Positions 35,319 to 38,300 of a stretch of DNA of 64,000 nt are shown here, piece after piece. Source of the DNA: Pseudofabraea citricarpa (lineage: Eukaryota; Ascomycota; Leotiomycetes; Helotiales; Dermateaceae); NCBI GenBank assembly GCA_029641185.1, contig JAPWGK010000016.1, forward strand, positions 434,001 to 498,000. The letters run 5' to 3'. Under the pieces are notes generated by a model. The model saw only the letters and a program-made list of their open reading frames with translations. It did no database searches and was not told where the DNA came from. The stretch's first letter is position 1. Every line of letters begins with the position of its first letter. The position numbers and the translations under genes were made by a program.

Positions 35319-38300
35319 ATGTTCAGGAGGTAAGATGATCCCTACACCAGCTTTTTGCAATGCTCTAGGAGCTTCCAATGGATCAATTGAGCTGACACGA
35401 GTCCTTCGGATACAGCGCCCTTCAAAAAGCTGCCCGGCCGTCCGTGGCCTCAGCACGAAGTGCTTTCAGACCTGCAGTCTCTACCGGACTGAGAGCTGCC
35501 TCTGCTAGATATGCCAGCGACTCTGCCCTCCATGGCAAGATCCATCAAGTCATTGGTGCCGTTGTTGATGGTACGTGCCTTGAAAAATTCTGCCCGTCGA
35601 CGAGGACGAGTTCCGATTGCGACCAAGCTTGCTGAAGTATAATGGGCTTGATACTGACATTCTAAAACAGTCAAGTTCGATACCGACAAGCTTCCCCCGA
35701 TTCTCAATGCCTTGGAGACGATGAACGGAGAAAACAAGCTCATCCTCGAGGTAGCAGTACGTCAACAACACCTCGAACACATGAAACCCTACAGCAGCTA
35801 ACCAGTAAATAGCAACATTTGGGAGAGAACGTCGTCCGAACAATTGCTATGGATGGTAAGAAGCGTGCACACTTCCAGGGCTGACTGGAGGCTGACAAAT
35901 TTTCCATAGGTACTGAAGGTCTCGTCCGTGGCCACAGCTGTTCAGACACTGGTGCCCCCATCACTGTCCCCGTCGGTGCAGGAACTCTTGGTCGTATCAT
36001 GAACGTCACTGGTGACCCAATTGATGAGCGCGGACCCATCAAGGCTACCAAGAGACTTCCTATCCACGCCGATGCCCCTGCTTTCACTGAACAATCCACT
36101 TCTGCTGAAGTCTTGGTTACCGGTATCAAGGTCGTTGATTTACTCGCTCCATATGCTCGTGGAGGAAAGATTGGTCTTTTCGGAGGAGCTGGTGTCGGAA
36201 AGACCGTGTTCATTCAAGAGTTGATCAACAACATCGCCAAGGCTCACGGTGGTTACTCCGTCTTCACTGGTGTAGGAGAGCGAACTCGTGAGGGTAACGA
36301 TTTGTACCACGAAATGCAAGAGACCTCCGTCATTCAACTCGATGGAGAATCTAAGGTCGCATTGGTCTTCGGTCAGATGAACGAGCCCCCGGGAGCCCGC
36401 GCTCGTGTCGCTCTTACTGGTACGTACTTCTTATTCCCTCCAAGAGTCATGTGACTAACTGCTTGCCAGGTCGTAAGTCCATATCCCCTTCCCCCATTGC
36501 CCCTTCCCCTTTGCCCTTGCCTTCCCATTAATCGTCCAACAATGAGCACAAGTGTGTTCATGGCACCTGCCGTCCAAAATGAGACGGTATATCTCGGCGT
36601 CGATTGCGCTCTGGACCATGGTCAACAAGGGCCACGACAGACGCAATAGTGCCGTCAGAAATGGAGACAGGTCTGCCAATGGAACCGGATCTGGACCTGG
36701 ATCTGCACGAGAGCGAGGGCCAGGACGGTGACCTGGACCTGTTGCAATTGGACGCTGCTTCCACAAAAGTAGAGAACCTGACATACGGTCTGGTCAACAT
36801 CGATGCCCCCACATGGTAAATCAATCCGGACTTTAAGATTCTTTTCCGTGAACGATCTAGCTATGATAGCAACGCCTCCTGCTCTCCGCTATCATTGGCA
36901 CCCAATTTGGAAACTGTCCTATCCTCTTCTGATCCGCCGTCCGTCGACATCTTTCTTTCTCTACCCAGACTACCTGGAGAGAACAACTGGGGCGTCTACG
37001 GGTGTCTCATGAAGAAGCACAGATGTCTACCCAAACTGCACATAGGGTCCGGAACGAACGAAGACTATGGGGTGGAAAATCGAATGACCCACTACAAGCC
37101 GGACGGCCCGTCGCTGCCCAAGTTCGTCCACCAAGCATTCAGACAAGGGTACAGAGTTGCCAACATTGGCCTACTCTGCTGGACGCCAACGCCAACAGCA
37201 GGTCTGATTCCCCGGGTGAGAGCTCGGATCACGGCCCTGGAAGCTGCATCTACGGTGGCGTTCCACGTCTGCATTCCCGCCATAACAGACCAGTGGTACC
37301 ATCATCTTGTGTGATGGAACCGCAACACTGTCGCGGACCTCTGGGGTCCACTCTGTTCTCACCCACCTCTGAACGAACTTATTCGTGGGGATTTGCATAT
37401 GAGCTCAGACCAGCTCGAGCTGATTCCTGCTATCCGCAAGAAGAGGGTGGCCGAGAACGCGAACAAGCGCAGTCAGAAGCATCGAGCAGCCCAGCGTGCC
37501 ATGGACCTCGATGCCTATCGACTGAAAGATCGAGTTCAGAAGAACGCTTGGGCTGAGAACAATCGAGCTCGGAACAACGAGATCGCTTCAAGAGTCCGGA
37601 CCAAAGCCATAGAAGCCAATCGGTTTCGTTGTGATGATTGTTCCATGTCATTGCAGACCCAGGCTGCTCTCACGAGCCATGCCCTCACACGATCGCACCA
37701 AGACCAAGTCGCTGGCATTGAAAAGTCTGCCATTACCAAGAGTGCTGTGGCCGTGGCTGCGGTCCGTACCCAAGCCAAGGCAGACAAGTTGCATTTCCGC
37801 TCGACTTGTGAAAAGGCTTTCGCAAACGACTGGAGCTTGACCAGACACAACAATGGCATTCTTCCCGCCAAACGAGTTCAACGGCTTCAAGCCGTCAGCT
37901 CGTAGTCCGGAATCCTTTGCTAACTTTTTTGACTTTTCTTATGTCTTCCCAAACTTATCATAACCGTCTTTCATAACGTCTGTTGATGTGCACTTCATAC
38001 TAACATTTAATCCCAAAGTTACGGTCGCTGAGCAATTTCGTGAGGAGGGACAAGATGGTGAGTTCAACTGCAAACGATAGTGGAATCCTACCTAACTTAT
38101 TCCAGTGTTGCTCTTCATCGACAACATTTTCCGTTTCACTCAAGCCGGTTCCGAGGTGTCTGCTCTTCTTGGTCGTATCCCATCTGCTGTCGGTTATCAA
38201 CCAACTCTCGCCGTAGACATGGGTCTTATGCAAGAGCGTATTACCACCACTACTAAGGGATCCATTACTTCCGTCCAGGCTGTCTATGTCCCTGCTGATG

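Follow-up and report, generated by a model that had tools for sequence, protein, structure and literature searches.

ATP2 and its oversized intron

We analysed a window of 64,000 nucleotides (nt) from the fungus Pseudofabraea citricarpa (GCA_029641185.1, contig JAPWGK010000016.1, positions 434,001 to 498,000; contig C8 within a genome of 44 Mb and 43 contigs). In this window ATP2, the nuclear gene for the beta subunit of the F1 ATP synthase, contains a very large intron with what appears to be a decayed nuclease gene inside. ATP2 lies on the + strand, and the part examined starts at 35909 with an exon (35909..36419) that ends in GCTCTTACTG. It is followed by an ordinary 50-nt intron (36420..36469, GTACGT..CCAG with CTAAC), a 3-nt exon, GTC (36470..36472), and an intron of 1,546 nt (36473..38018) that has a GTAAGT donor, a TACTAAC branch site (37998..38004) and an AAAG acceptor, and that splits a Leu codon as C|TT. 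Downstream come a 39-nt exon adjoining the insertion site (38019..38057) and three further ordinary introns of 48 nt (38058..38105), 51 nt (38528..38578) and 58 nt (38769..38826); within the examined part, the other four introns measure 48-58 nt, against 1,546 nt for the large one. The joined exons match fungal ATP2, aligning over 409 residues with solved fungal beta subunits, and the large intron is presumably spliced in vivo, as its signals and the rebuilt protein suggest. A first-pass annotation made from the sequence alone had described this segment, with ideal GT-AG and TACTAAC signals and a split Leu codon, and its coordinates and signals are as it gave them. The preceding 50-nt intron and the 3-nt exon were absent from it. 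That exon is needed: when GTC is omitted the product reads ALTVTVAEQF instead of the conserved TGLTVAEQF. The 39-nt exon has a Gln where the solved fungal relatives have a Tyr, and it is one residue shorter, which makes the sole gap in the 409 aligned residues of the best alignments. No inverted repeats of at least 14 nt were found at the ATP2 intron.

Inside the large intron, on the same strand, we found a decayed open reading frame (ORF; 36661..37905, in frame 36475) of 414 residues and a final stop. Two in-frame stops, TAA at 36817-36819 and TGA at 37312-37314, interrupt it; the ATP2 copy is therefore a remnant that encodes no whole protein. When the read-through frame, with stops replaced by X, was searched against protein databases at E <= 0.01, 16 proteins matched with E from 3e-50 to 7e-134, and the best six covered 87-95% of the query at 51-56% identity. 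Judged from sequence, this similarity is far above chance, and the ORF therefore has intact relatives.

A predicted GIY-YIG fold with C2H2 fingers

The first-pass annotation had read the frame as a GIY-YIG nuclease with C2H2-like fingers, and this reading was borne out by AlphaFold prediction and structural alignment. The model of 36820-37314 reached a pLDDT (the AlphaFold per-residue confidence score) of 87.8, and structural alignment ranked I-TevI first, over model residues 55-152; I-TevI was the best structural match of both models, with which it shares the fold of the catalytic domain. The module itself (36982..37275) shows GVY, then HIG in place of YIG, and keeps the Arg and the Glu. In GIY-YIG nucleases two Tyr, an Arg and a Glu have active-site roles. 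In an alignment of 72 family members, Y87 is invariant, and Y101, R115 and E167 are conserved in at least 90% of the rows; the ATP2 copy has His for the second Tyr, in addition to its broken frame. Towards the C-terminus, a first C2H2 zinc finger (37624..37698) matches PF00096 (E 2e-4, 22.0 bits, with a cut-off of 25.2), and a second, degenerate C2H2-like finger was placed by eye against the relatives, with approximate bounds (37789..37875).

Profile searches showed the fingers but not the nuclease. In the Pfam check of 36661-37905 that the first-pass annotation had suggested, pieces of the ORF gave weak C2H2 matches only, that to PF00096 being the best and below the cut-off, and the nuclease part gave nothing. 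Among the 72 family members, none matched the Pfam GIY-YIG profile at E <= 0.001, a threshold at which the matches comprised 21 families, all of them fingers or a few domains of unknown function; at E <= 0.1, GIY-YIG was not among the 25 families listed of 65. The family profile, searched against solved structures, retrieved zinc-finger proteins only among the best 60 of 292 matches, and Foldseek alone detected the GIY-YIG fold weakly. Two candidates from the genome were set aside. The only PF01541 match, at C4:1226275, has no similarity to the family, and we take it to be an Slx1-type gene; a weak match in L013, on C3, had no support as a family member. Viral contigs and genome contigs scanned with A1, one pattern each, yielded no relatives.

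Intact counterparts and grouping by host gene

A protein search of the same genome revealed two more full open frames, on C34 (382 amino acids (aa), stop to stop) and C11 (513 aa), each lying within a conserved gene and on its coding strand. The host on C34 is CPA2, the mitochondrial-type carbamoyl-phosphate synthase large subunit, in which an exon ending in KKTVMIN runs directly into a 2,502-nt intron (L010:3345-5846, - strand) with the intact nuclease ORF; the flanking exons are open, and the next one restarts with FNPETYSTDYD. The host on C11 is the aconitase gene ACO1, where a 48-nt intron and a 2-nt exon, TG (L011:6115-6116, - strand), precede a 2,390-nt GT-AG intron with a GTTCGT donor, CTAAC and a TCAG acceptor; the exons that flank it rebuild aconitase when joined. 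Both host names are our reading of the sequences, that of aconitase being backed by Pfam aconitase domains in a relative (P0124, below). Same-strand intronic placement therefore holds at 3/3 loci of this genome that keep most of the ORF, and the large introns of ATP2 and ACO1 begin 3 and 2 nt downstream of a short-intron acceptor. No group I or group II intron was matched by Rfam at E <= 5 in 36300-38200, L010 (CPA2) or L011 (ACO1), a search that a diverged one could escape. Tandem repeats occur in both of these large introns, with units of about 51, 72 and 87 nt in CPA2 (L010:5123-5687) and of 60 nt in ACO1 (L011:5167-5470), where acidic repeats extend the ORF.

The three ORFs are merely 31-39% alike in local protein alignments, and a DNA search of the genome with the ATP2 element recovered itself and one 71% fossil only. 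One fossil of the family, on C20 (L012:4796-4992), is 63% identical to the ATP2 ORF over 54 residues and has one stop; another, on C16 (L052:4728-4973), keeps finger sequence, and both lie outside any recognisable gene. Compared with the ATP2 ORF, the C20 fossil differs at 12/65 first, 8/65 second and 30/66 third codon positions. Differences mostly at the third position indicate that divergence proceeded mainly under protein-level constraint and that decay came late. No second copy of CPA2 or ATP2 with an empty site was found in the genome; the other matches of these searches were a 50%-alike enzyme on C39, retrieved with the CPA2 exons and taken as URA2-type, a weak one on C12, and a 30% match on C42, taken as another ATPase subunit.

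Relatives are numerous in other fungi. At E <= 0.01 the CPA2-intron ORF matched 218 proteins (the best 120 were used), the aconitase-intron ORF 34 and the ATP2 frame the 16 mentioned above; our sample comprises 165 distinct proteins (P0001-P0165) among the matches listed. For seven of the 165, the name or the domains point to a host gene. P0151 of Elsinoe australis, annotated as ATP synthase subunit beta, contains a nuclease ORF 56% identical to ours and joined to ATP2 at LTLAEYFRDEEGQD, apparently the same acceptor as that of the large ATP2 intron here. Of the comparison with ATP2 from related species that had been proposed at the outset, an intact copy has thus been found, in a gene model. 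In P0124 of Meristemomyces frigidus, the junction with aconitase falls at QWDRRDVKKG, where ACO1 here has a short phase-1 intron; this insertion site is inexact, because gene models may skip exons. In Glarea lozoyensis, the tail of P0143 matches DDX3X among solved structures (E 1.4e-5) and, at 75%, a DED1-like gene of the P. citricarpa genome. That gene is uninterrupted at this place, and the Glarea DED1 appears filled, by its gene model. The last four, P0023, P0028, P0038 and P0107, are named cpa2, by name only, with no CPA2 part in the sequences read. The other 158/165 have no usable host, and some bear unrelated names (P0033 rubrerythrin, P0140 transposase-like). A C-terminal -SS[EKQ]LD or similar is common among these relatives, 42/165 of which end in LD. 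The idea that -LD reflects an overlapping branch site was not borne out, the CPA2 ORF here stopping with TGA.

The ORFs group by host gene. In a large tree of 141 of 168 rows (the 165 proteins and the three ORFs of this genome, rows below 300 aa dropped and the host parts of P0124, P0143 and P0151 trimmed), the ATP2 ORF fell with the Elsinoe ATP2 protein (15 rows; SH-like approximate likelihood ratio test (SH-aLRT) 100), the aconitase ORF with that of Meristemomyces (22 rows, SH-aLRT 94) and the CPA2 ORF with P0023, P0028 and P0038 (54 rows, SH-aLRT 91); P0143 lay within a clade of 5 (SH-aLRT 100). A more careful tree of 28 rows, the three ORFs and 25 relatives chosen from the 165, repeated the ATP2, aconitase and CPA2 groups with bootstrap/SH-aLRT values of 100/100, 94/93 and 99/97. 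Forcing the three ORFs into one clade, a group defined by genome in a test run after the first tree was seen, cost 372 log units and was rejected (p-AU, the P value of the approximately unbiased test, 8.67e-39). The host-gene clades (ATP2, CPA2, ACO1) rest on the seven informative relatives. This grouping indicates that the association of the elements with their host genes predates their presence in this genome and, as far as sequence can tell, it is what is expected of site-specific homing lineages, not of introners or of intragenomic spread.

Proposed homing within spliceosomal introns

According to these results, the ATP2 segment very likely belongs, as a decayed copy, to a family of nuclear homing elements residing in spliceosomal introns. 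A nuclear homing intron, or its remains, had been suspected from the start; the predicted fold, the fingers, the Elsinoe counterpart, the two intact counterparts of the same genome and the grouping by host gene back this reading, and 'remains' fits a copy with two stops. In the scenario that we favour, a GIY-YIG endonuclease with C2H2 fingers would be encoded within an ordinary spliceosomal intron, and since the spliceosome would remove this intron, the host gene would still work and its enzyme be made. The nuclease may be expressed from inside the intron, via the pre-mRNA or an internal promoter. The intact protein would bind the conserved DNA of the host gene through its fingers and, if it acted as I-TevI-type homing enzymes do, cut alleles without the intron; repair from the intron-bearing allele, by gene conversion, would then copy the intron into the cut allele. 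Cleavage and homing by the family are attributed on this analogy. Conserved sites in essential genes would explain a long persistence. The ATP2 copy has probably lost its activity and remains as a large intron.

Several observations weigh against this scenario or are not accounted for by it. The CPA2 intron ends as TTGCTAACTTACTTAACG|TTCAACCC (AACG|TTC), without an AG where the protein demands an acceptor, and no hidden exon copy that would explain it was found within the intron; the acceptor could be a sequence error, a non-canonical one or the mark of a freshly broken gene. The ATP2 exon directly 3' of the large intron deviates from the fungal sequence, possibly as a trace of co-conversion or of a change of target. 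One protein named cpa2, P0107, falls beside the DED1 clade, as the one exception to the host-gene pattern. Finally, because a short intron lies nearby in ATP2 and ACO1, a target spanning that place would differ with and without it; recognition may therefore depend on the exon that follows, or the short introns may have been acquired afterwards.

In a different view, a selfish ORF invaded pre-existing short introns, the nuclease gene being the mobile unit and the introns its safe harbours. The few nucleotides that separate short and large introns in ATP2 and ACO1 speak for it, as does the P0124 model, which enters aconitase at the very codon where ACO1 here has a short intron. However, the short intron persists beside the large one at both loci, so that it was not the recipient; in CPA2 the exon passes into the large intron with no short one between, and the Elsinoe ATP2 model apparently uses the large-intron acceptor. 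We consider this view unlikely, while granting it some weight. It is improbable that the nuclease gene is a host gene, domesticated or simply nested, whose place within introns is fortuitous and whose product works for the host: a widespread and conserved family (218 matches) would suit such a role, but its members sit in four host genes, as seen in our DNA or in gene models, always on the host strand at our three loci, while the ATP2 copy is decayed and the fossils lie outside recognisable genes.

Three ORF-bearing introns and two fossils in a single genome might also evoke introner-like spread, that is, one ORF-bearing intron copied to several genes within this genome. We find this very improbable, given the low similarity of the three ORFs, the single fossil found at the DNA level, the greater proximity of each ORF to same-gene ORFs of other fungi, the rejection of a single clade and, by eye, no common intron ends beyond the splice signals. 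Introners are defined as groups of highly similar introns (PMC12768974). They share with the present introns the status of mobile spliceosomal introns, whereas here three deeply diverged, site-specific lineages are found rather than a highly similar group. As for an error of assembly, contamination, or a separate gene mistaken for an intron, the odd CPA2 acceptor and the lack of RNA evidence are what could be invoked; since joining the flanking exons restores ATP2 and aconitase and the gene model of an independent fungus has the same ATP2 arrangement, such an explanation is scarcely credible.

The closest known systems are the spliceosomal homing introns (shintrons) named in mirusviruses, where 132/334 endonucleases are GIY-YIG and where the association of a spliceosomal intron with a homing endonuclease is presented as unobserved until then (Medvedeva et al. 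2025, Nat Microbiol, PMC12768974). Both systems have GT-AG spliceosomal introns, homing-type endonucleases including GIY-YIG and specificity for their target genes, and neither has a recognisable group I/II signature; theirs lie in viral genomes, mostly in virion genes, whereas ours lie in fungal nuclear housekeeping genes (PMC12768974). The fungal nucleases also differ in carrying C2H2 fingers, and the likeness noted here is one of description. Canonical donor, branch and acceptor are present in ATP2 and ACO1, the CPA2 acceptor (AACG) departing from them, and a homing-type endonuclease is encoded as judged by predicted fold, the ATP2 copy itself being broken. By analogy, the family would work like a shintron. 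I-TevI, a GIY-YIG homing endonuclease, is carried by a group I intron. It shares the catalytic-domain fold, while the fungal proteins are carried by spliceosomal introns, bind DNA, as predicted, through C2H2 fingers and helices, and have no Pfam GIY-YIG match.

To our knowledge, the only lasting homing elements in nuclear protein genes are inteins. Within the literature searched (titles and starts of abstracts, preprints and most subscription papers lying outside it), no such introns were reported in cellular nuclear genes, and the term 'shintron' occurred in the mirusvirus paper and one unrelated paper. A telomeric gene in the nuclear genome of Ustilago maydis was described as containing a decayed GIY-YIG gene of mitochondrial origin (Dutheil et al. 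2020, PMC7593156). It too is a decayed GIY-YIG homing gene within a fungal nuclear protein gene, but a single accidental insertion that truncates its host and is missing from other isolates, without a spliceosomal intron; the string 'spliceosom' is absent from the text available (PMC7593156). Fungal mitochondrial GIY-YIG and LAGLIDADG intron genes likewise combine fungi, GIY-YIG and an intron carrier, in self-splicing organellar introns, as opposed to spliceosomal nuclear ones (PMC7487136). Others of the reports concern rDNA introns and mitochondrial introns (PMC11889510 and PMC4469406), in the parts available.

Taken as sequences, these elements are nuclear spliceosomal introns with putative GIY-YIG/C2H2 nucleases; they form one family, widespread in fungi, whose lineages are tied to host genes. 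We further propose, with somewhat more reserve than for the ATP2 segment itself, that nuclear homing introns probably make up a large family which is still alive in filamentous fungi. With the help of the C2H2-GIY-YIG nucleases that they encode, these introns would spread within populations and from one species to another, and every lineage would keep to a single site of one housekeeping gene (in ATP2, CPA2, aconitase, DED1 or further genes). It is an old and still unanswered question how genes acquire spliceosomal introns at particular positions. If the proposal is true, the family would give cellular genomes a natural way of acquiring spliceosomal introns at targeted sites. The intact relatives inside other conserved nuclear genes of fungi suggest that a nuclear intron of the ordinary kind can spread by itself. 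Since intact, conserved and widespread candidates are available in named genes, cleavage, transmission bias and intron gain are directly testable in fungi. There is also a consequence for annotation: in public gene models, intron ORFs appear to have been mistaken for portions of ATP2, aconitase or DED1, and because the models P0151, P0124 and P0143 fuse the ORF to downstream host exons, the annotated ATP2, aconitase and DED1 of these fungi are probably wrong.
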